Of a DNA stretch of 64,000 nucleotides, positions 5,761-19,419 are shown one piece after another. Made by a program: the position numbers and the translations under genes. This DNA is from Pseudobdellovibrionaceae bacterium (GTDB lineage: Bacteria > Bdellovibrionota > Bdellovibrionia > Bdellovibrionales > Bdellovibrionaceae): assembly GCA_022843825.1 (NCBI GenBank), contig JALHMX010000003.1:1-64000 (forward strand), read 5' to 3'. The first letter of the stretch is position 1. The number at the start of each line of letters is the position of its first letter. A model generated the notes under the pieces. The model made no database searches, was not told the origin of the DNA, and saw only the letters and a list, made by a program, of their open reading frames with translations.

Positions 5761-8073
5761 TTATTTAATGGCAATACTATGTTGATCACCAGCGGCGACC
5801 TCAGCCCACGAGGTCCCAACCTGCACCGGTGAAGAACGGTTTGTGGTGCTATTGTTACCCATCTGACCTGAGCTATTACGACCCCAAGTCCATAAGGTGC
5901 CATTTGATTTTATAGCCAGACTATGCGACCCGCCCGCATAAGGAGTGGACCAATTATTTAATAATCCAACCTGCACCGGTGAAGAACGGTTTGTGGTGCT
6001 ATTATCACCCAGTTGTCCGTTGTTATTATAACCCCAGGTCCAAAGTGTTCCATCGGTTTTAGTAGCCAGTGTATGATTGTTTCCGGCAGCTACTTTTGAC
6101 CACGTCGTTAAAGCACCAATTGCCTTTGGTGTCTTAACGGCAACCTGCGTTCCATCACCAACTTCTCCATATAAATTACGGCCCCAGGCCCAAAGTGTTC
6201 CATCGGTTTTAGTGGCAACTGAATGATCACTACCCGCACCTATGTCTGCCCAATTTGTGGATGCATCAATTTGAATCGGTGAGCTTTTACCGGCTGATGA
6301 GATTGAATTATTTCCCAGCTGACCATTGTCATTTGAACCCCAAGCCCAAAGTGAGCCTCCGGTTTTAACAGCGACCGCGTGGTTTCCTAATGCGCTGTTC
6401 GCCACTAAACTGAAATCGCTGTGTGATCCCAACTGTACAGGGGATGAACGATTAGGACCATTTTCTCCTAATTGAACAACCGTGTTTGCACCCCAAGTCC
6501 ATAAAGTACCATCCGTTTTGATTGCCATACTACAGTGTTGACCTGCAGCCACGTTAGACCACGTGGTTAAAGCTCCGATCTGCACCGGAGACGATTTATT
6601 CACAGAAGTGCCATCCCCTAGTTGACCACTGGCATTTCCACCCCAAACCCATAAGGTGCCATCGGATTTTACGGCCATACTATGTGATGCTCCTGCAGAG
6701 ACTTTTAACCATGTGGTTAAAGCTCCGATCTGCACCGGAGACGATTTATTAACAGAAGTACCATCCCCTAGTTGACCGCTGGCATTGTCACCCCACGCCC
6801 ACAAGGTGCCATCGGTTTTAACTGAGAGCACGTGAGCACTTCCCGCAGAAATAGATCCCCAGTTGGTTAAGGCCCCCACCTGAGTGGGGGTTGAAACTAC
6901 GCTGGTATTTCCATTTCCTACTTGTCCCAGACCATTATGTCCCCAGCCCCAAAGCGTTCCATCAGTTTTTAATGCTACTCCCCCCGCACCATAGCACGAA
7001 ACCACCGACCAATCGGTAGCTACCCCAATCTGAGTAGGCGTGTTAAATGCCCCAGCAGGCCTTCCCAATTGATTCATATTAAACTGACTCATTCCCCAAC
7101 CCCAAAGGGTTCCATCGCTTTTAGTCGCCATAGTGTGCAAAGAGCCGGCTGAAATTGTACTCCAGGTGGTTAGAGCACCAACTTGGACAGGGGAAAGGTC
7201 TACATACTCTGAAAAGGTTCCGATTCCTAAGTAGCCATTGCCGTTACTGCCCCATGCCCATAAGGTTCCATCAGTTTTAATGGCGTGGGTCCAGTTGGGT
7301 CCCGCTGAAACTTTAGACCAATTAGTTAGGGCTCCGATTTGCTGATAGGCAGTATCGATTACGCCCAGTTGCCAAAAATCATTTCGCCCCCAACCCCAGA
7401 GTGTTCCATCAGTTTTAATCGCTAAAGTATGATACCCTCCTGCAACCACCTTTGACCAATTAGTTAAAGCTCCGATTTGTACCGGCGATGAGCGTTGTGT
7501 GTTTGAGGTATCACCAACCTGTCCATAAAAATTATTGCCCCAGCCCCAAAGCGTCCCGTCAGTTTTGATAGCTAAAGTGTGATAGTGTCCCGCTCCTACT
7601 TTTGACCAATTAGTTAAAGCACCGATTTGTACCGGTGAAGACCGATTTGTCAGGCTGTTGTCACCTAGCTGGCCATTATTATTGGCCCCCCATGCCCATA
7701 AGGTGCTGTCAGTTTTAGTTGTCACCGTATGGTTATAGCCAGCAGTCACTTTAGCCCATATTACACCCGTACCTATGCTGGAAGGTGTCGATCGACTTGT
7801 CAGATCGCCTAGTCCCAGCTGCCCAGTTGTATTTAGTCCAAAGCCAAATATATTGGCCTGCGGAGTTTTTTTTCTCCAGGCGGCATGGGGAATCATTTGG
7901 GCTAAAACATTTTTAGACGCTAACATTAAGCCTGCCGCTATAGAAATTTTATTCCACAGTCTTAAACCAGCATAGGTGCCCGTTAGTTCCAACGGATATT
8001 TAAGGAAATCTCGTCTTGAAATACTACTTTTAGCTTCAGCACAAGAAAGCAGTTTAATATTTTTATCTGGCAT
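5761..8073 (-). CDS. Tat-exported RCC1-repeat beta-propeller protein
   Basis: A 770-residue protein with a twin-arginine signal: SRRDFLK at residues 19-25, a hydrophobic stretch and a likely cleavage after VLA near residue 58. The rest is 14 copies of an RCC1 repeat of about 50 residues, each with the core TDGTLWxWGxNxxGQLGD and the linker SSPVQIGALTNWSKV. RCC1 propellers have seven blades, so 14 repeats would fit two propellers, and Tat export implies folding in the cytoplasm first. The ligand is unknown. It is the last gene of a minus-strand group with a glycosyltransferase-like gene and a giant fibre gene. It has its own promoter that puts the transcript start at the ATG (see 8080). Confidence 0.85.
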   Translation of the reverse strand: MPDKNIKLLSCAEAKSSISRRDFLKYPLELTGTYAGLRLWNKISIAAGLMLASKNVLAQMIPHAAWRKKTPQANIFGFGLNTTGQLGLGDLTSRSTPSSIGTGVIWAKVTAGYNHTVTTKTDSTLWAWGANNNGQLGDNSLTNRSSPVQIGALTNWSKVGAGHYHTLAIKTDGTLWGWGNNFYGQVGDTSNTQRSSPVQIGALTNWSKVVAGGYHTLAIKTDGTLWGWGRNDFWQLGVIDTAYQQIGALTNWSKVSAGPNWTHAIKTDGTLWAWGSNGNGYLGIGTFSEYVDLSPVQVGALTTWSTISAGSLHTMATKSDGTLWGWGMSQFNMNQLGRPAGAFNTPTQIGVATDWSVVSCYGAGGVALKTDGTLWGWGHNGLGQVGNGNTSVVSTPTQVGALTNWGSISAGSAHVLSVKTDGTLWAWGDNASGQLGDGTSVNKSSPVQIGALTTWLKVSAGASHSMAVKSDGTLWVWGGNASGQLGDGTSVNKSSPVQIGALTTWSNVAAGQHCSMAIKTDGTLWTWGANTVVQLGENGPNRSSPVQLGSHSDFSLVANSALGNHAVAVKTGGSLWAWGSNDNGQLGNNSISSAGKSSPIQIDASTNWADIGAGSDHSVATKTDGTLWAWGRNLYGEVGDGTQVAVKTPKAIGALTTWSKVAAGNNHTLATKTDGTLWTWGYNNNGQLGDNSTTNRSSPVQVGLLNNWSTPYAGGSHSLAIKSNGTLWTWGRNSSGQMGNNSTTNRSSPVQVGTSWAEVAAGDQHSIAIK

Positions 8074-9241: not shown

Positions 9242-12200
9242 TTACATCCCTGGCATCCACGTTATGTATACGTCGCCACCAGCCACTATGATTGAATAAA
9301 AAGTGTGCTTAGCGTTGGTTGTTTCTCCATGATCAGTTGGCATTTTTACGTTTCCCCCGGCATACTGCCCTGTACCACTTCCACTATAAATTGTGAAAGA
9401 ACAGGTCGCTGGTGTCCCACCTTTGACGATAAAAGTGTATGATCCACCTTCTTTAACGTTGTAAAGATTGTAAGCGCCACAGTTTTGAGTTGTATGTTGA
9501 ATGTTACCGGTTCCAAAGTCGATAATGCCGGTTGCATTAGATGTTGAAGCTTTGTATAAAACCACCCCGCCAGAAAATGTGGTTGTTGTTCCACTAAATG
9601 TTTTATCACCGGCTATAGTTTGAGCTGTTGTTTTATCCACGATCCCCGCTGCGTCTTTGGTTCCCGAAGCCCATGTCGAAGCACCAGTTGCATAAACCAC
9701 GTTTCCTGCTGAGCCACCAGCCAAACTCGTAATCGCTGAAGTTCCTGCTCCTACAAGTAAACTTCCAGCTGTATGAGTCGCAGCACCTGTGCCGCCGTAT
9801 TGCACTCCTATAGCTGTTCCGTTCCATGTGCCTGATGTAATGGTTCCTACGGTAGTAATACTACCTGATCCTGCAGCCGGAGCCCGCGAAGTATCAACCG
9901 GATGCACATGATCTTCTCGAGAATATCTTAATGAGGTTCCTACTGCCACAGTATTATTCATTAATGGACTGCTTGATCCCGCTTGCCCCACAACATACGC
10001 CGTAGTCGCTAACTGAGTAGTATTCGTGTTAACTGCAGCGGTCGGAGCTGCCGGAGTTCCCGTAAATGTTGGCGAGGCTGAGAATACTAAATTCCCAGAT
10101 CCTGTTTCATTACTGATAACAGCAGCAAGTTGCGCTGATGATGTAGTTGCGAACTGTCCAAGTCCCAATGTTGTTGATGCATCACCTGTTCCTATTGCAG
10201 TACCATTAACTCTGAACGCGCCGCCAGTTAGATTAATGTCGCCCGATACATCAAGCGCGTAAGATGGAGTGGTTTTTCCAATAGCTACTTGACCCGCAAA
10301 ATAAGACTTCGCCGCAGCAGAAGAGTATATCGCGTAGTTATTTGCACCTGCAGCAGGAGATGTGATTTCTATAGCTCTGTTATTGGTAGCTCCTGATATC
10401 GACATTGATAAACCCGTGTTGGTCGTTGCGGCCCCACTGACAGCGACAGTTATACCTGCATTCGATGAAGAAGCGCCTGAAGCAGAGACACCTACTCCTA
10501 TATTTGATATAGCTGCCCCTGAAGCCCAAGCTTTTACCCCGGTATTAGAAGCTGAACTGCCAGAACCCACTGCTTGGGCATCAATACCTATAAAATTAAC
10601 TAAATAGGTTGATGCGTTTCCTGAGGCTAACCCTCGCAATCCTGTAAACAGCGAAGCCGAATCGGTACCATTGATCGTTCCACCCTGTAAGGTTGCATGA
10701 CCCTGTACTCCAACAGCAGAAACAGCTCCAAAAAAATGGGTCTGCGCCCCTGAAAAAGTAGATGTTGATGATGTGGCGATCAGGCTATGCGCATCATATT
10801 TAGCATTAGTTCCAGAGTACGTTAGAGCTACACTTTGACCAGTTTTACTGTATGCATTAGCACCGTCACCAGTAGGTAAATTTCCGCTTTCTGTCAGCTG
10901 TATTTGCTGAGCAACTACAGCTGAATTATCTACAGAGCTAGCCTGTACCACGTGCAATTTCGAAGTTGGAGCCGTCGTTCCAATACCCACATTAGTACTT
11001 CGATAAATATCTCCAGAAACAGTATTTGTCCACTTGGAACCCGCACTGTTAAACGTTGTCCAATCCGCTGAAGTCAATAAACCAGTTGTCGTTCCACTAG
11101 CCAAAGTTGTAGAGGTTGGAATGTTTACTCCGTTAATTTTAAAATTACCTGTTACATTTACATCACCGGATACATCAAGCGCGTATGAGGGAGAGGACAT
11201 ACGAACACCTACAGCACCACCACCCATACCAAAATAAGTCGGAGCCGTATGCGCACCGATCTGCGCGTCTACTGTTGTGGTATTATCTCCGCGCATAAAC
11301 TGCATCGATCTTACGCCGGTAGTATTGGTGTTACGAAAAATTCTAAGACTAGCAGAGCTTGTTCCATTATTGGGACGAGGATCAAAATCAAAAGTTGCGG
11401 ATCCTGCAGCAGTATTTTTAAGAATACTAAAGTTATTTCCATCCTCTTCCATGATTGTGTTGTAACCAGTTGCAAAATCACTGTCATTTAATCTGATTAT
11501 AGGTGCTGCATTATGAATATGTAATGGCGTAAGCGGAAGACTTATGCCCAAACCGACAAAACCAGTCGCTCTATAAATATCGCCTGAAGCATTTTGCGTC
11601 CACTTAGAAGATCCACTTGAAAACGTTGTCCAATCAGCTGATGTTAATAATCCTGTTGTCGTTCCACTAGCTAAAGTTGTAGAGGTTGGAAGATTCACTC
11701 CGTTAATTTTAAAGTTTCCACCGGTAAGATTAATGTCGCCTGAAACATCAAGCGCGTAACCTGGATTAGTAACTCCTCCAATACCAACAAAACCAGCAAC
11801 ACCGGCTGATGGAGCGCTTTCTATGGTAATGCTTGGTACTGTTGAATTGGCACCTAACATTAAAGAATCAGCTACGCTATTAACTAAACGACTGCCATTG
11901 GTGCGACCGCTTCCGATAACAGCAGATCTTGTGTTGTTCGCAGTCACAAACTGACCTATAGCTAAACTATTATCTCGTGAGGCTATCGCACTTCTTGATG
12001 AAGCACTGTGATCTGTAGCGCCAATAGCAACAGCATAAGCTCCGCTTGCAACAGTGCCCGCACCAATAGATACACCATATGCTGCGCCAGCCGTAACTGA
12101 TGCTAGTGACCCAATTGCTACCGATCTTGTAGAATAGCTGTTAGCATAATTACCCATGGTGATCGAATCACTTTCAGTACTCTCCGCATTAGGCCCTACA

Positions 12201-13291
12201 ACAAAGGAACTTGATCCTTGCGCTATAGCATTTAAACCCATAGCGATGGAATCTTGACCAATGTTTGCATGGTTCCACTGAGTACCATCGACTGTCCCAA
12301 CACGAAAAGCTGATTTTGAAGGAATCCACATCATGCGTGCGCCTGCTCCAGATGCAGGCGTAATATCAGTAGAATCTCCTGTCGCTAAAAATGAACCATT
12401 GATTGCAACATTACTAGCGCGCGATATATCACCAGACGCATCTTGAGTCCACTTAGAAGATCCGCTTGAAAAGGTTGTCCAATCAGCGCTTGTTAATAAA
12501 CCAGTTGTCGTTCCACTAGCCAAAGTTGTAGAGGTTGGAATGTTTACTCCGTTAATTTTAAAATTATAACCCGCAGTTAAATTAATATCGCCCGACACAT
12601 CAAGAGCATATGAAGGAGTTTTTCCGATACCCACTTGACCACTTGAAGTAATTCTCATTTTTTCTGTTGTCGTCACATCCGCCGAGGCCGCATTTGGACC
12701 CATCGTATAAAATATTAAAGATCCATCTTTAGAGTTGTTAGCAGCATCATCCCACACGCCAGCTATGCGCGCGGCTTCTCGGGATGCTTCGTTTGTTGTC
12801 GTTTCTAAGTTAAAGGTCAATGCAGCTCCAATTCCATTGGAGGCTGCAGAGTTCGAGTCCTCGCGGCTTAATCGCAAAGTTTCTACAATGTCATTACCAG
12901 CAGTGTTTGGGGCATTCACATGCAAGTGTGCCTGTGGACCAGTATTATATGTATTTATACCTGTTCTTTGGGCTTCACTACCAAGTGTAATACCAAAAGC
13001 ATCGGCATACATAAAGCCATAACGATCATTATTATCTGGATTTCCTATTCCTATGGTTAAGTTAGCTGGGTCAAGATAAATTCCAAAAAAGCCACCATTA
13101 TCAAATGCGGCGGCAGAAGTTGCCGATCGAACGTGAAGAGGATAATCTGGCGCAGTATTTCCAATACCCACACGGCTGGCACGATGAATATCGCCAGAGG
13201 CATTCTGTGTCCACTTAGATACACCACTTGAAAAAGTTGACCAGTCTGTGGAAGTTAAATATCCATCATTCGCAGCACTAGCCGCGATCAT
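9242..13291 (-). CDS. Trimeric fibre-like protein, C-terminal part (frameshifted)
   Basis: An open frame of 1,349 codons that continues the protein of 13288-17787. Its apparent ATG is an internal codon of a repeat (SAKQDAMIAASAAND) with no ribosome binding site. It contains repeated segments of the type FKINGVNIPTSTTLASG and LLTSADWTTFSSGSSKWTQ, alternating with distinct inserts that begin VGIGTTAP. One insert, around residues 350-480, is a left-handed-roll-like run (SVAIGSL, VSIGAGT, AVAIGAT) as in YadA/Hia adhesin heads. The C-terminus is a unique domain with two Cys (QNCGAYNLY, ATCSFTIYS). This modular architecture matches phage tail fibres and the mosaic adhesive trimer proteins described in Bdellovibrio, which act in prey recognition. 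Confidence 0.85.
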   Translation of the reverse strand: MIAASAANDGYLTSTDWSTFSSGVSKWTQNASGDIHRASRVGIGNTAPDYPLHVRSATSAAAFDNGGFFGIYLDPANLTIGIGNPDNNDRYGFMYADAFGITLGSEAQRTGINTYNTGPQAHLHVNAPNTAGNDIVETLRLSREDSNSAASNGIGAALTFNLETTTNEASREAARIAGVWDDAANNSKDGSLIFYTMGPNAASADVTTTEKMRITSSGQVGIGKTPSYALDVSGDINLTAGYNFKINGVNIPTSTTLASGTTTGLLTSADWTTFSSGSSKWTQDASGDISRASNVAINGSFLATGDSTDITPASGAGARMMWIPSKSAFRVGTVDGTQWNHANIGQDSIAMGLNAIAQGSSSFVVGPNAESTESDSITMGNYANSYSTRSVAIGSLASVTAGAAYGVSIGAGTVASGAYAVAIGATDHSASSRSAIASRDNSLAIGQFVTANNTRSAVIGSGRTNGSRLVNSVADSLMLGANSTVPSITIESAPSAGVAGFVGIGGVTNPGYALDVSGDINLTGGNFKINGVNLPTSTTLASGTTTGLLTSADWTTFSSGSSKWTQNASGDIYRATGFVGLGISLPLTPLHIHNAAPIIRLNDSDFATGYNTIMEEDGNNFSILKNTAAGSATFDFDPRPNNGTSSASLRIFRNTNTTGVRSMQFMRGDNTTTVDAQIGAHTAPTYFGMGGGAVGVRMSSPSYALDVSGDVNVTGNFKINGVNIPTSTTLASGTTTGLLTSADWTTFNSAGSKWTNTVSGDIYRSTNVGIGTTAPTSKLHVVQASSVDNSAVVAQQIQLTESGNLPTGDGANAYSKTGQSVALTYSGTNAKYDAHSLIATSSTSTFSGAQTHFFGAVSAVGVQGHATLQGGTINGTDSASLFTGLRGLASGNASTYLVNFIGIDAQAVGSGSSASNTGVKAWASGAAISNIGVGVSASGASSSNAGITVAVSGAATTNTGLSMSISGATNNRAIEITSPAAGANNYAIYSSAAAKSYFAGQVAIGKTTPSYALDVSGDINLTGGAFRVNGTAIGTGDASTTLGLGQFATTSSAQLAAVISNETGSGNLVFSASPTFTGTPAAPTAAVNTNTTQLATTAYVVGQAGSSSPLMNNTVAVGTSLRYSREDHVHPVDTSRAPAAGSGSITTVGTITSGTWNGTAIGVQYGGTGAATHTAGSLLVGAGTSAITSLAGGSAGNVVYATGASTWASGTKDAAGIVDKTTAQTIAGDKTFSGTTTTFSGGVVLYKASTSNATGIIDFGTGNIQHTTQNCGAYNLYNVKEGGSYTFIVKGGTPATCSFTIYSGSGTGQYAGGNVKMPTDHGETTNAKHTFYSIIVAGGDVYITWMPGM

Positions 13292-16200
13292 CGCATCTTG
13301 TTTTGCACTGAACGATGACCAGTCTGCAGAGGATAATAAACCCCTCGCCCCAGCACTAGCTGTTGGGATATCAAAGGTATGAACATCGCCTGATGAGCTA
13401 ATAACGAAGTCAGTGCCTGCGGCACCGACTGCAAAACTTTGAGTTGTTCCAGTTTGGCCATTAATGTACTTAATGTTCCTGCAGCATTACCAGGTGTGTA
13501 CCCTAAAGCTGTAATAACATCACCAGAAGTAATTCCAGAGATTTTACTATTAAATAAAGACCAGTCGCTAGATGTTAAATATCCATCATTACTTGCAGTC
13601 GCTGCCAATAATGCATCTTGTTTGTTATTAAATATAGACCAATCACTTGAAGTTAAATATCCATCATTTGCAGCACTAGCTGCAACCATAGCATCTTGTT
13701 TTGCGCTGAATGATGACCAGTCTGCAGAGGATAATAGACCCCTCGCCCCAGCACTTGCGGTTGGGATATCAAATGTATGAACATCACCTGATGAACTGAT
13801 CACAAAATCAGATCCAGCAGTGCCTGCTGCAAAACTTTGAGTTACGCCAGTTTGGCCGTTTAATGTACTTAAAGTTCCCGCAGCATTACCAGGGGTATAA
13901 CCTAATGCTGTTACTATTTCGCCTGAAGTTAATGAGGCCGCTGATAATACTCCCGAAGTACTACGCACAAATCCATCTGGTAAGGCTAAGGCTGTGTTAA
14001 TATCAGTAGATGTAATTCCAGATATTTTACTGTTAAATATTGACCAGTCTGCAGAGGACAATAGACCCCTCGCCCCAGCGCTTGCGGTTGGGATACTAAA
14101 GGTATGAATGTCATTTGAAGATTGAATCGCAAAATCAGATCCCGAAGCATCGAAAGCAAAACTTTGAGTGACACCAGTTTGTCCGTTTAATGTACTTAAT
14201 GTTCCAGCTGCATTTCCAGGTGTGTAACCTAAAGCTGTGATAACATCGCCAGAAGTAATTCCAGATATTTTACTATTAAATATAGACCAGTCTGAACTTG
14301 TTAAATATCCATCATTACTTGCAGTTGCTGCTAGTAATGCATTTTGTTTATTGTTGAATATAGACCAATCACTTGATGTTAAATAACCATCATTAGCAGC
14401 ACTAGCTGCAACCATGGCATCTTGTTTTGCGCTGAATATTGACCAGTCTGCACTTGATAATAGACCCCTCGCCCCAGCACTTGCGGTTGGGATATCAAAT
14501 GTATGAACATCACCTGATGAACTGATCACAAAATCAGATCCAGCAGTGCCTGCTGCAAAATTTTGATTTGTTCCAGTTTGTCCATTAAGTGAAGTTAATC
14601 CACTTCCTGCGCTTGGTGTATAACCTAATGCAGTAATGACTTCACCTGATGTTAAAGTTGCTGCTGATAATACGCCAGAAGTACTTCGCACAAATCCATC
14701 TGGTAAGGCTAACGCTGTATGAATATCACCAGATGTAATTCCCGATATCTTACTGTTAAATAGTGACCAGTCTGTGGAAGTTAAATATCCGTCATTAGCA
14801 GCACTTGCTGCAACCATGGCATCTTGTTTTGCGCTAAATATAGACCAGTCTGCACTTGATAATAGACCCCTCGCCCCAGCGCTTGCGGTTGGGATACTAA
14901 AGGTATGAATGTCATTTGAAGATTGAATTGCAAAATCAGATCCCGAAGCATCAAAAGCAAAACTTTGAGTAACACCAGTCTGTCCGTTTAATGTACTTAA
15001 AGTGCCTGCAGCGTTTCCAGGGGTATAACCTAAAGCTGTGATAACATCGCCAGATGTAATTCCAGATATTTTACTGTTAAATAGTGACCAGTCTGAACTT
15101 GTTAAATATCCATCATTCGCAGCACTAGCAGCGATCATCGCATCTTGTTTTGCGCTGAATGATGACCAGTCTGCAGAGGATAATAGACCCCTCGCCCCAG
15201 CGCTTGCGGTTGGGATATCAAACGTATGAACATCACCTGATGAACTGATCACAAAATCAGATCCAGCAGTGCCTGCTGCAAAACTTTGAGTAACACCAGT
15301 CTGTCCGTTTAATGTACTTAAAGTGCCTGCAGCATTTCCAGGGGTATAACCAAGGGCTGTTACTATTTCACCAGAAGTTAATGATGCTGCTGATAATACT
15401 CCCGAAGTACTTCGCACAAATCCATCTGGCAAAGCTAATGCTGTGTGAATATCACCAGATGTAATACCCGATATCTTACTGTTAAATAGTGACCAGTCTG
15501 TGGAAGTTAAATATCCATCATTTGCAGCACTAGCTGCAACCATAGCATCTTGTTTTGCGCTGAATATAGACCAGTCGGCAGATGACAATAGACCCCTCGC
15601 CCCAGCGCTTGCGGTTGGGATACTGAAGGTATGAATGTCATTTGAAGATTGAATCGCAAAATCTGATCCTGAAGCATCGAAAGCAAAACTTTGTGTAACG
15701 CCGGTTTGTCCATTTAATGTATTTAAAGTACCTGCAGCGTTTCCAGGGGTATAACCTAAAGCTGTGATAACATCGCCAGATGTAATTCCAGAGATTTTAC
15801 TATTAAATAAAGACCAATCACTTGAAGTTAAATATCCATCATTTGCAGCACTAGCCGCAATCATCGCATCTTGTTTTGCGCTGAATATAGACCAGTCTGC
15901 AGATGATAATAGGCCCCTCGCCCCGGCCGATGCGGTTGGGATACTAAAGGTATGAATGTCATTTGAAGATTGAATCGCAAAATCTGATCCTGAAGCATCG
16001 AAAGCAAAACTTTGTGTAACGCCGGTTTGTCCGTTTAATGTATTTAAAGTTCCAGCTGCGTTTCCAGGTGTGTAACCAAGAGCTGTTACTATTTCACCTG
16101 ATGTTAATGAGGCCGCTGACAATACGCCAGAAGTACTTCGCACAAATCCATCTGGCAAGGCTAACGCCGTATGAATATCACCAGATGTGATTCCAGAAAT

Positions 16201-17787
16201 TTTACTATTAAATAGTGACCAGTCTGTGGAAGTTAAATAACCATCATTCGCAGCACTAGCTGCACTTAATGCTGCTTGTTTCGCGTTAAATACAGACCAG
16301 TCTGTGGAAGTTAAATATCCATCATTCGCAGCACTGGCTGCGCTTAATGCTGCTTGTTTCGCGTTAAATACAGACCAATCTGTGGAAGTTAAGTAACCCG
16401 AAGCACCGGCTCCGGCTTGAGTAATGGTAATATTCGGCGTAGGCCCGCCTGTTGATGATAGCGGTGCACTGGCTGTTACATCAGTAACACTTCCACTACT
16501 AGCTGGAATCCAACTGGTGTTTCCACTGCCATCAGTGGCTAGTACATATCCGTTGCTTCCGGTGTTAGCTGGAAGCGTGAAAGAATAATCCCCTGAGGTT
16601 AAGGCGTTCGGTGCTTTTAATAATATACGATCAGTATTAGTAATATCATAAAGATAAAAATTTCTGCCCAATACATTGGTGGCACTTAATCCAGTCAACG
16701 TCGCATTACCAGATCCATCCCGTTTTACTATTGTTGATGGATCATTGGAATGCGTTGCCGCTTGAGTATCATTCACTGAAGTTGCGATCTCTGCAGCAGT
16801 CTTTGTTCCAACTGTTGAAACAACAGTTGCGGCTAAAGTTCCCGTGACATCTCCTGATAAAGAGCTTGCGCTCTGCCATGCTCCGGTAATACGCGCATCA
16901 TCACCTTCTACCAAAGTTCCTGAAGTTGTTCCGATATTCACACTTAAAGTTGGAGTCGTGTTAGGGTTTGTTACTGTTATAAAAGTATTATCACTGCTGA
17001 CAGCGGTTACGGTTCCACCACTACTAACAACTGGAGCCGCCACCCATGCAGTACCATTATACATTAACACTTCACCTGATGATGGAGACGCAATAGATAG
17101 CGTAGTATTCTGAAGTCGCGATACCACCGTAGCGCCTTGAGTACCGGTCACATCTCCTGAAAGTGTTCCCGTAAAATTCGCTTGCGCCCCAGGAGCAGCA
17201 CAACTAAAAACTGTTCCGTTATAAGTTAAAAACTGACCACCACCGCAGGTTGTGAAATCCGCAAATCGTGCAAAAGTATTCGCACTAAATCCACCCAACT
17301 GGTCCGAGTTCGTAGCTTGAGAGGCGTACATCGCAAATGGCACTGAGTTAATCGTTGTTCCAGAAATAGCTTGAATACCATTTGATCCCGGATAACTAAA
17401 TTCAACGATAAACAAGCGACCTTCGTTTGTCGTTAGCGGAGCGTAAGTTCCACCCTCTAAACAGGCCATGATGTTAGTTGAAGCATTATTAAAAATATCA
17501 TAAAGCGTAACACCAGCTACAGGAAATGAGGGAACTCCACTTCCTAGTTGAAGATTTATTCCTCCGCCAGATCCGGTCATGTCGATATTGGCGTAGGTTT
17601 CAATAAATACCGTACAGTTGTCGGCAACGTTCTTATATCTGAAAGTAAAAGTGACAGCGTTTGATTCTAAGGGCTGACCGTTAGGTTTAGAAATATGAGC
17701 TTGAAAATTAGTGGTCTCTGGCGCAGCTTGCGCCAGAGCTAAACTAAAAAAGTAGCTCAAAAGTATTCCAACGAAATAGCGGTTCAA
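13288..17787 (-). CDS. Trimeric fibre-like protein, N-terminal part (frameshifted)
   Basis: TTG start at 17787 with AGAGGAG upstream, a signal peptide (LALAQA) and an N-terminal domain of about 190 residues with a Cys pair. Low-complexity Ser/Thr/Gly modules follow: eight copies of a module containing ALGYTPGNAAGTL, STLNGQTGVTQSF, FSIPTASAGARGLLSSADW and AASAANDGYLTSSDW. In the eighth copy (about 13461) one T is missing on the plus strand (TT instead of TTT), so the last 60 residues are out of frame. The expected frame resumes on the far side as the 9242-13291 ORF. Repaired, the protein has about 2,845 residues and would be exported and form a long surface fibre. Confidence 0.85.
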   Translation of the reverse strand: MNRYFVGILLSYFFSLALAQAAPETTNFQAHISKPNGQPLESNAVTFTFRYKNVADNCTVFIETYANIDMTGSGGGINLQLGSGVPSFPVAGVTLYDIFNNASTNIMACLEGGTYAPLTTNEGRLFIVEFSYPGSNGIQAISGTTINSVPFAMYASQATNSDQLGGFSANTFARFADFTTCGGGQFLTYNGTVFSCAAPGAQANFTGTLSGDVTGTQGATVVSRLQNTTLSIASPSSGEVLMYNGTAWVAAPVVSSGGTVTAVSSDNTFITVTNPNTTPTLSVNIGTTSGTLVEGDDARITGAWQSASSLSGDVTGTLAATVVSTVGTKTAAEIATSVNDTQAATHSNDPSTIVKRDGSGNATLTGLSATNVLGRNFYLYDITNTDRILLKAPNALTSGDYSFTLPANTGSNGYVLATDGSGNTSWIPASSGSVTDVTASAPLSSTGGPTPNITITQAGAGASGYLTSTDWSVFNAKQAALSAASAANDGYLTSTDWSVFNAKQAALSAASAANDGYLTSTDWSLFNSKISGITSGDIHTALALPDGFVRSTSGVLSAASLTSGEIVTALGYTPGNAAGTLNTLNGQTGVTQSFAFDASGSDFAIQSSNDIHTFSIPTASAGARGLLSSADWSIFSAKQDAMIAASAANDGYLTSSDWSLFNSKISGITSGDVITALGYTPGNAAGTLNTLNGQTGVTQSFAFDASGSDFAIQSSNDIHTFSIPTASAGARGLLSSADWSIFSAKQDAMVAASAANDGYLTSTDWSLFNSKISGITSGDIHTALALPDGFVRSTSGVLSAASLTSGEIVTALGYTPGNAAGTLSTLNGQTGVTQSFAAGTAGSDFVISSSGDVHTFDIPTASAGARGLLSSADWSSFSAKQDAMIAASAANDGYLTSSDWSLFNSKISGITSGDVITALGYTPGNAAGTLSTLNGQTGVTQSFAFDASGSDFAIQSSNDIHTFSIPTASAGARGLLSSADWSIFSAKQDAMVAASAANDGYLTSTDWSLFNSKISGITSGDIHTALALPDGFVRSTSGVLSAATLTSGEVITALGYTPSAGSGLTSLNGQTGTNQNFAAGTAGSDFVISSSGDVHTFDIPTASAGARGLLSSADWSIFSAKQDAMVAASAANDGYLTSSDWSIFNNKQNALLAATASNDGYLTSSDWSIFNSKISGITSGDVITALGYTPGNAAGTLSTLNGQTGVTQSFAFDASGSDFAIQSSNDIHTFSIPTASAGARGLLSSADWSIFNSKISGITSTDINTALALPDGFVRSTSGVLSAASLTSGEIVTALGYTPGNAAGTLSTLNGQTGVTQSFAAGTAGSDFVISSSGDVHTFDIPTASAGARGLLSSADWSSFSAKQDAMVAASAANDGYLTSSDWSIFNNKQDALLAATASNDGYLTSSDWSLFNSKISGITSGDVITALGYTPGNAAGTLSTLMAKLEQLKVLQSVPQALTSLLAHQAMFIPLISQQLVLGRGVYYPLQTGHRSVQNKMR
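13300..16420 (-). repeat. Eight imperfect coding repeats inside the fibre gene
   Basis: Eight modules of roughly 300-450 bp, many differing by only a few bases, are arrayed through this part of the fibre gene. Stretches such as the one encoding PTASAGARGLLSSADW are almost identical in every copy. Two submodule variants (FDASGSDFAIQSSND and AAGTAGSDFVISSSGD) alternate irregularly, which suggests past duplication and exchange between copies. Unequal recombination would change fibre length without changing the frame. Confidence 0.85.
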
Positions 17788-18270
17788 CCTAACTCCTCTA
17801 ATTACGTACTATTTTTATGCGGTTTTTTTCTGAAACATTTATTAACTGCATACCGATATATCGGTGAAGAGCGTTGATAAGTTTAACATTTTTGAAAAAC
17901 TGCGCCTTATTCTGGGATAAGAATATTAATAAGCGATATAAGCGTTACTTCTAAAAAAGCACTTGCAATAATATCATTTTAAAACAGCACTTAGTCTGGC
18001 TTTACATCCAAAGTCCAGCGACCCAAAGTGAACAAAAGTAAAAACTCTCGTTTCTGCAGTATTTACAACGGCACCGACAATTAATGCGTCTGAGCTTAAA
18101 ATTTAAGCTTATAGATAGAGTTTCACTATCAATAAAAATAAATACTTAAAGGGATTTTTATTTTTTTGTCGTGTGGCCCATCAATTGCTTTGGGCTTTGA
18201 GCATACAATTAACAAACGACATCGTTATCTAAAAAAATTGATGTCGGCAATTCCAAAAAAAGGGGAAAAA
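17788..18270. other. Divergent intergenic region with 14-bp palindrome
   Basis: This 483-base gap lies between the divergent fibre gene (start 17787) and the 11-mer-repeat gene (start 18271). It should hold both promoters. A perfect palindrome ACCGATATATCGGT at 17852-17865, 65 bases before the fibre start, is a candidate operator. The frame of the plus-strand gene stays open back to 18166 but lacks a ribosome binding site there. I see no RNA gene or other ORF. Confidence 0.4.
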
Positions 18271-19419
18271 ATGAAAATGAAATCATTGGTATCAATTATT
18301 ATGGCAGCATCGCTAGCCAGTGCACCGATCAGCTCAACTTGGGCTAGCACATCAACTCTGTCTTACAACATGAACACCATGGACTATGATATGAGCGCAG
18401 AAAATTTGTCTGAAGAAGCTATGGAAGATATCGAAATTAATGTAGAGGAATCTGAAAAAAAAGACGGCAATCCATTCACAAGTGTTCTAAAGAAAATTTT
18501 TGTAAAAGCTCCCGTAGGTTTAGCTAAGCTTATCGGAAAAGGCATGAAAGGCATGGCCAAGGGAATTAAAATTGGCGTGGTCTACGTGGCTAAAGAAACT
18601 AAAGATGGAATAGTCGAAGTGGCTGAATTAACTAAATACGTAGGGAAGAAAATCGGTCAAGGCACTGTGTTTGTTGCAAAGAAAACCGCTCAAGGTGTTA
18701 AACTTGTTTCCTTAGAAATCAAAGATGTAACTTTAGCTGTGGCACATGTCACTAAGCAAGGGGTTATTTTCCTGGCTGATCAAACCGGAAATGCGGTCAA
18801 AGCTATTTTTAATGGCGGGGTTTATGTGATTAAAAAAACTGCTCAAGGAACTGTATGGGTAGCAAAAGAACTTTCTAAATTTACTTTAACAGCAGCGGAT
18901 AAGTTAAAAGACGGAACGGTTTATGTGGCTCGAAAAACAGCGAGTGGCGCTTATTCAATTTATAAAGCGACCCGTTTCGTGGCTGAAGAATTAAAAGACG
19001 GAGTGGTTTATATAGCAAAACAAACAGGAAAAGGGATAGCACTCGTTGCTGTTAATGTTGCAAAACTTTCAGTTAAAACCATAAAAATCGCTGCTGATGG
19101 CGCCGTTTTTCTTTACTCTTCGGCTAAAAAAATAATCGGCATGATTGTCGATGGCGTAGTGTATGTTGCGGTAAAAACGGCCCAAGGCACAATTTATTTG
19201 GCTCAACAAGTGGTGAACGGAACAGTGTATTTAACTGAAGAAATTTTTGATGGCGTTAAATACATCGCTGTAAAAACTGCACGCGGAATTGAGTTCGCTG
19301 CCGAAGGAACTGCTGAAGCAGCCCGTTTAACTGCTAAAGGTGTAAAAATCAGTGCTGTGTTTATAGCTAAGAAAATTTCAGGTGGATTTATTTTTTATGT
19401 AAATTCATTTAAGAACTAG
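18271..19419 (+). CDS. Secreted 11-residue-repeat (synuclein-like) amphipathic protein
   Basis: A 382-residue protein. The ATG at 18271 follows AGGGG by six bases; earlier in-frame codons lack a site. A signal peptide ends near STWA (residue 25), followed by an acidic segment to about residue 65. Residues 101-366 parse without remainder into 21 eleven-residue units and five seven-residue units (123, 174, 236, 287, 349). The consensus is xGxVYVAxKTx, and Gly holds position 2 in 18 of 21 units. Eleven-mers of this type form lipid-binding amphipathic 11/3 helices in alpha-synuclein (compare EGVLYVGSKTK with DGVVYVAVKTA here) and related proteins. I infer a membrane-surface-binding exported protein and know of no named family. 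It is transcribed away from the fibre gene and ends at a strong terminator. Confidence 0.8.
   Translation: MKMKSLVSIIMAASLASAPISSTWASTSTLSYNMNTMDYDMSAENLSEEAMEDIEINVEESEKKDGNPFTSVLKKIFVKAPVGLAKLIGKGMKGMAKGIKIGVVYVAKETKDGIVEVAELTKYVGKKIGQGTVFVAKKTAQGVKLVSLEIKDVTLAVAHVTKQGVIFLADQTGNAVKAIFNGGVYVIKKTAQGTVWVAKELSKFTLTAADKLKDGTVYVARKTASGAYSIYKATRFVAEELKDGVVYIAKQTGKGIALVAVNVAKLSVKTIKIAADGAVFLYSSAKKIIGMIVDGVVYVAVKTAQGTIYLAQQVVNGTVYLTEEIFDGVKYIAVKTARGIEFAAEGTAEAARLTAKGVKISAVFIAKKISGGFIFYVNSFKN

Follow-up and report, generated by a model that had tools for sequence, protein, structure and literature searches.

The window examined here is a stretch of 64,000 nucleotides of contig JALHMX010000003.1 from a Pseudobdellovibrionaceae bacterium. 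It carries the gene for a 382-aa protein, P0001, on one side of which lies a giant fibre-like open reading frame (ORF) read in the opposite direction and on the other a sodium/proton antiporter gene. The ORF proposed at 18271 to 19419 in the first-pass annotation is real, and its ATG is preceded by AAGGGG. The features of the locus are as follows.

13288-17787, reverse strand: giant fibre-like ORF of 1499 aa, divergent from the P0001 gene (context only)
18260-18265, forward strand: Shine-Dalgarno-like AAGGGG, 5 bases upstream of the P0001 ATG (sequence reading)
18271-19419, forward strand: coding sequence of P0001, a predicted exported 11-mer repeat protein of 382 aa (translation)
18271-18345, forward strand: putative Sec signal peptide, residues 1-25, MKMKSLVSIIMAASLASAPISSTWA, with cleavage probable after TWA (by inspection)
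18346-18453, forward strand: acidic segment, residues 26-61, net charge -10
18454-18570, forward strand: basic hydrophobic lead, residues 62-100, with MKGMAKG, at which the match to the Pfam Synuclein model starts
18571-19368, forward strand: repeat region, residues 101-366, of 21 eleven-mers and five seven-mers, net charge +15
19384-19416, forward strand: C-terminal motif GFIFYVNSFKN, the counterpart of GFSFYVSSFQN in the homologue P0002
19443-19472, forward strand: intrinsic terminator-like hairpin of 13 pairs with a T run, 3' of the P0001 gene
19472-21721: sodium/proton antiporter gene, adjoining the P0001 gene

The Shine-Dalgarno-like sequence together with the terminator-like hairpin suggests that the P0001 gene is a single-gene transcription unit. 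It is present in a single copy in the source genome (2.40 Mb, 99.5% complete), and base composition (GC of 39% versus 40%) shows no sign of recent gene transfer. The divergent giant fibre gene reported in the first-pass annotation was found, with 483 bp (17788 to 18270) separating the two starts; this intergenic region matched nothing in Rfam and showed no above-chance promoter signal, nor was an Rfam match found near the P0001 gene. The signal peptide that had also been proposed is likely, and of the Sec type, when judged by eye, and no strong transmembrane segment was apparent after it (19-residue hydropathy maximum of 1.49). On the other side of the intergenic region, the 1499-aa fibre-like ORF and a second of 1349 aa (together at 9242 to 17787 of the window, reverse strand) overlap by 4 bases. 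The repeat pattern of the 1499-aa ORF is lost near its end (GTLSTL, followed by unrelated residues) and is picked up again in the 1349-aa ORF, which gives the impression of a single giant fibre gene that a frameshift, either real or an assembly error, has divided. By eye, this apparent gene resembles those for the Bdellovibrio chimeric fibre proteins (PMC10769870). Close to it, at 5761 to 8073 (reverse strand), lies a gene whose 770-aa product has 13 RCC1 repeats and begins in a twin-arginine-like manner (SRRDFLK).

Residues 101 to 366 of P0001 tile exactly into 21 eleven-residue and five seven-residue units. This division, already described in the first-pass annotation, held when unit lengths of 4 to 15 were all permitted and lengths other than 11 were penalized at three levels. 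At the highest penalty the same tiling won; at the middle penalty 20 eleven-mers, four seven-mers, and one 13/5 pair were obtained, the last being an 11+7 pair redrawn as 13+5; and at the lowest penalty the tiling fragmented into 16 eleven-mers, five seven-mers, and odd lengths. Across residues 84 to 382 the repeat model scored 248, compared with 131 ± 10 for 60 residue shuffles (maximum, 160). The computed unit consensus, [DQK]-G-[TV]-V-Y-V-A-K-[KE]-T-A, agrees with the xGxVYVAxKTx read earlier, whereas the count of Gly at position 2, given as 18 of the 21 eleven-mers, is 15; four of the five seven-mers also carry it (19/26 units). DNA identity between units averages 43% (best, 70%), and the repeats are therefore not the product of a recent tandem expansion.

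Profile searches of 369 Bdellovibrionota genomes identified P0001 and one further family member, P0002, a 335-aa protein encoded at G044 C2:99719-100723 in another family of the same order. It is the only full-length homologue found, so that the search for homologues and their spread called for by the first-pass annotation returned two of the 369 genomes of the phylum. The BLASTP E value between the two proteins is 1e-8, and as the pair is repetitive, their shared architecture is the stronger evidence of homology. Both have a signal-like start, an acidic segment (net charges of -10 and -23 in P0001 and P0002, respectively), a remaining part that is basic (net charges of +26 and +32), four units that align in register around KTAQGT...KDGxVYVA, and a C-terminal tail of the form GF[IS]FYV[NS]SF[KQ]N (GFxFYVxSFxN). 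P0002 tiles with the P0001 position matrix with a z score of 8.6, a score reached by none of 500 shuffles; it differs from P0001 in its less regular tiling, higher Gly content, extension by about 15 residues at its end, and lack of a Synuclein match. Judged from these sequences, Bdellovibrionota have a small family of exported repeat proteins, not named before, of which P0001 is one of at least two members. The distribution of this family is patchy. The P0001 gene is missing from all 13 other genomes of the same genus, no homologue was found when P0001 and A1 were used in wider searches over genome contigs, and none was found in viral contigs or, by tblastn, in phages and plasmids. Conserved adjacency to the antiporter gene was rejected: seven other genomes of the genus retain the antiporter, without the P0001 gene wherever the flank is readable (in G012 the contig ends there). 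The P0002 gene, in a neighbourhood unlike that of P0001, adjoins a ferrochelatase-like gene. Two Lys/Ala-rich low-complexity ORFs (KKATKKATKK; L034:4916-5320 and 12302-12889), histone-H1-like by eye, were also seen near the P0002 gene in G044.

The resemblance to synuclein noted in the first-pass annotation proved to be real as a position-specific 11-residue code. P0001 scores 28.0 bits against Pfam Synuclein (PF01387; E value of 2.9e-6), which is above the membership cut-off of 23.3 bits, and the same model gave 24.5 bits for P0001 in the genome search. A search of the sequences of solved structures with P0001 returned alpha-synuclein as the sole molecule listed up to an E value of 1, with a best E value of 0.062 that is not significant; with a two-member profile, alpha-synuclein filled the first 29 places (best E value, 0.011). 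Repeats of the KTKEGV type occur in register in P0001 (KTAQGT, ETKDGI, KTARGI, LTAKGV, and others), and the P0001 position matrix also tiles alpha-synuclein (z score of 8.2), a protein known to form a helix on lipid. The two proteins share 11-residue units with Gly-2, Val-3, Val/Ala-6, Ala-7, Lys-9, and Thr-10 and a 99-degree periodicity. In contrast to synuclein, P0001 is bacterial and probably exported, has 26 units, and is more hydrophobic (mean of 0.41 versus 0.21). Neither the acidic C-terminal tail nor the vertebrate cytosolic setting of synuclein is found in P0001, in which the acidic segment precedes the repeats, the tail is GFIFYVNSFKN, and a signal peptide is likely. When the composition at each position was kept and the order of units scrambled, 13 of 13 shuffles still matched Synuclein (8.1 to 26.5 bits, two over the cut-off), the best falling slightly below the real score. 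None of five residue-order controls (four shuffles and the reversed protein) matched, and P0002 has no Synuclein match and no Pfam match of any kind up to an E value of 10. As position-preserving shuffles match while residue-order controls and P0002 do not, the Synuclein match reflects the 11-mer code itself, and the likeness of P0001 to synuclein is best read as convergence on such a code, as had been suspected. The earlier remark that no described family was known for P0001 needs qualifying, in that the Pfam cut-off is passed, but Synuclein membership does not survive the controls or the homologue.

The hydrophobicity power spectrum of the P0001 repeats peaks at 98.5 to 99 degrees, with a power of 14.8 in the raw scan that exceeds the maximum of every one of 500 residue shuffles (mean maximum, 5.1; overall maximum, 9.3). 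At 160 to 180 degrees, where a beta periodicity would appear, the power is 1.7, and the lag-2 autocorrelation is negative. The observed peak agrees with the 3.64 residues per turn (98.8 degrees) predicted from 21 units of 11 and five of 7 residues. A seven-mer is an eleven-mer less four residues, about one helical turn, and its insertion thus keeps the apolar face in register. On the helical wheel, positions 2, 6, 10, 3, and 7 are adjacent and form an apolar arc, while positions 8, 1, and 9 are polar. The 11/3 amphipathic periodicity, for which a helical-wheel check had been suggested in the first-pass annotation, was confirmed, and beta periodicity is absent. The main misfit to an amphipathic helix is position 5, a Tyr or Phe in 12 of the 21 eleven-mers, which falls on the polar side. 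In P0001 the local helical moments are modest (0.14 to 0.43), and P0002 has several windows with very low moments (0.07 to 0.08) and a weaker spectrum (8.8). The 11-residue repeat also gives a first harmonic at 35 degrees that almost equals the helical peak of P0001 in strength; the same pair of harmonics (99 degrees and about 31 degrees) was observed in the N-terminal part of alpha-synuclein. AlphaFold2 drew short strands and beta hairpins both for the whole protein (mean pLDDT of 32) and for a block of four units (pLDDT of 49), in each case at unusable confidence.

Given the 98.5- to 99-degree peak, the register-keeping seven-mers, the apolar arc, and the tiling of alpha-synuclein and P0002, a helix on lipid is a better-supported reading of the repeats than a strand. 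We put at about one-half the probability that P0001 is an exported protein whose repeats adopt an 11/3 amphipathic helix of great length on an anionic membrane. After Sec export, the repeat domain would be largely unfolded in water, with the acidic segment balancing its basic charge and partly holding it soluble. Upon contact with an anionic membrane, the 266 residues of the repeats would fold as one extended 11/3 amphipathic helix, about 40 nm in length if continuous. The residues facing the lipid would be Gly-2, Thr/Val-3, Val/Ile-6, Ala-7, and Thr/Ile-10, with Lys at the sides of the helix and Asp/Gln/Lys at position 1 toward the water. Such a helix could coat or stabilize a cell-envelope membrane, by default the periplasmic leaflets of the cell itself and alternatively the prey envelope, and would work as the repeats of synuclein or perilipin do, with an independent origin.

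Two rival explanations concern structure, one concerns the target, and one concerns descent; the last two can overlap any structure. Tyr/Phe-5 on the polar side and the modest moments count against the lipid helix, as do the Gly-rich and beta-branched units, the low-confidence AlphaFold2 hairpins, and the 35-degree harmonic, which would also fit strand-turn units. The last three speak as well for a beta-structured exported fibre or functional amyloid of the surface or matrix, in which each 11-mer would be a short strand (GVVYVA) and a turn (KKTAQ) in a curli-like stack. The adjoining fibre gene and the fact that synuclein itself forms beta fibrils also point this way. As the AlphaFold2 models are unusable, a beta or amyloid form retains an appreciable chance, but we consider it unlikely: the alternation expected of strands is missing from the spectrum, a regular stack would be broken by the seven-residue units, the repeats contain 12 to 13% Lys, and neither curli nor any other amyloid family was matched in Pfam. 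The mixture of 11- and 7-residue units is also the classic hendecad/heptad pattern, and P0001 might instead form a coiled coil or bundle, a protein-protein assembly making an envelope rod rather than a lipid coat. This appears distinctly unlikely, as the composition of the repeats (Gly, 9%; Val, 15%; Leu, 6%; Glu, 4 to 5%) is unlike that of coiled coils, Gly is present in most units, and no coiled-coil family was matched in Pfam.

Regarding the target, the genus, which is most likely Pseudobdellovibrio as inferred here, contains the epibiotic predator P. exovorus (PMC11656739), and basic amphipathic repeats encoded divergently from a fibre gene would suit a predation effector released onto prey and inserting in or disrupting the prey membrane. 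We regard such a role as very unlikely and any action on prey as speculative: the 13 other genomes of the genus lack the gene, P0002 is encoded in an unrelated neighbourhood beside the ferrochelatase-like gene, and neither an immunity-like partner nor a secretion-system gene was seen adjacent to P0001. True homology with vertebrate synuclein, through ancient ancestry or gene transfer, would account for the Pfam score and for the extension of the Synuclein alignment to MKG[ML][SA]K ahead of the repeats. It is nevertheless extremely improbable in view of the matching position-preserving shuffles, the full-length homologue that lacks any Synuclein match, the unremarkable base composition, and the restriction of synucleins to vertebrates (PMC10451939).

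The folding of 11-mer repeats as an 11/3 helix on lipid has been established for synuclein and Plin4 (PMC5889406). The giant amphipathic helix of Perilipin-4 resembles P0001 in its very long 11-mer run and predicted 11/3 helix (PMC5889406); it is found on lipid droplets, whereas P0001 is probably exported and has no Pfam perilipin match. Plin4 is without bulky residues (PMC8064757), whereas P0001 has an aromatic residue in most units. Should P0001 prove to bind lipid, the synuclein/perilipin 11-mer helix would have an exported counterpart in bacteria, which would serve as a natural second experiment on the purpose of the 11-mer code: on the residues that membrane coating requires and on whether a tendency to form beta fibrils accompanies that code. 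A bolder proposal, which we hold to be a long shot, is that P0001 is a secreted synuclein analogue that evolved independently in a predator lineage and uses its 40-nm, 26-unit helix to remodel or seal membranes at predator-prey junctions; if so, the synuclein 11-mer code would be one on which exchangeable membrane coats have also converged outside eukaryotes. Since convergence can carry a protein over the Pfam cut-off for Synuclein, bacterial "synucleins" in databases are not to be taken as homologues of the Parkinson protein.

No Pfam match up to an E value of 1 was found between P0001 and the perilipin, apolipoprotein, LEA, or phasin families, and lesser matches to DUF5487, methylmalonyl epimerase, and PHROG 2327 were rejected because they fall short of the cut-offs or, the protein being repetitive, are unreliable. 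Candidates L015, L017, and L018 matched the pattern of the C-terminal motif but do not belong to proteins of the P0001 kind, and L007, L012, L013, and L004, named by eye as SPFH-like, YceI-like, RelA/SpoT-like, and aspartyl-tRNA synthetase, were caught by composition and were likewise discarded. A second pair of exported proteins rich in Val, Lys, Thr, and Gly, P0003 and a relative, was observed in G170 and G191 (L037:835-1659 and L060:1462-2277), two of the 369 genomes. With the P0001 11-mer matrix P0003 scored above shuffles (z scores of 5 to 6.8) and its relative barely so; the lack of profile-level homology to the P0001 family (hhalign probability of 0.3%) and the nonhelical spectrum of the relative place the pair in a separate family rather than among distant relatives of P0001. 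The two are 32% identical to each other and share a conserved Cys pair.
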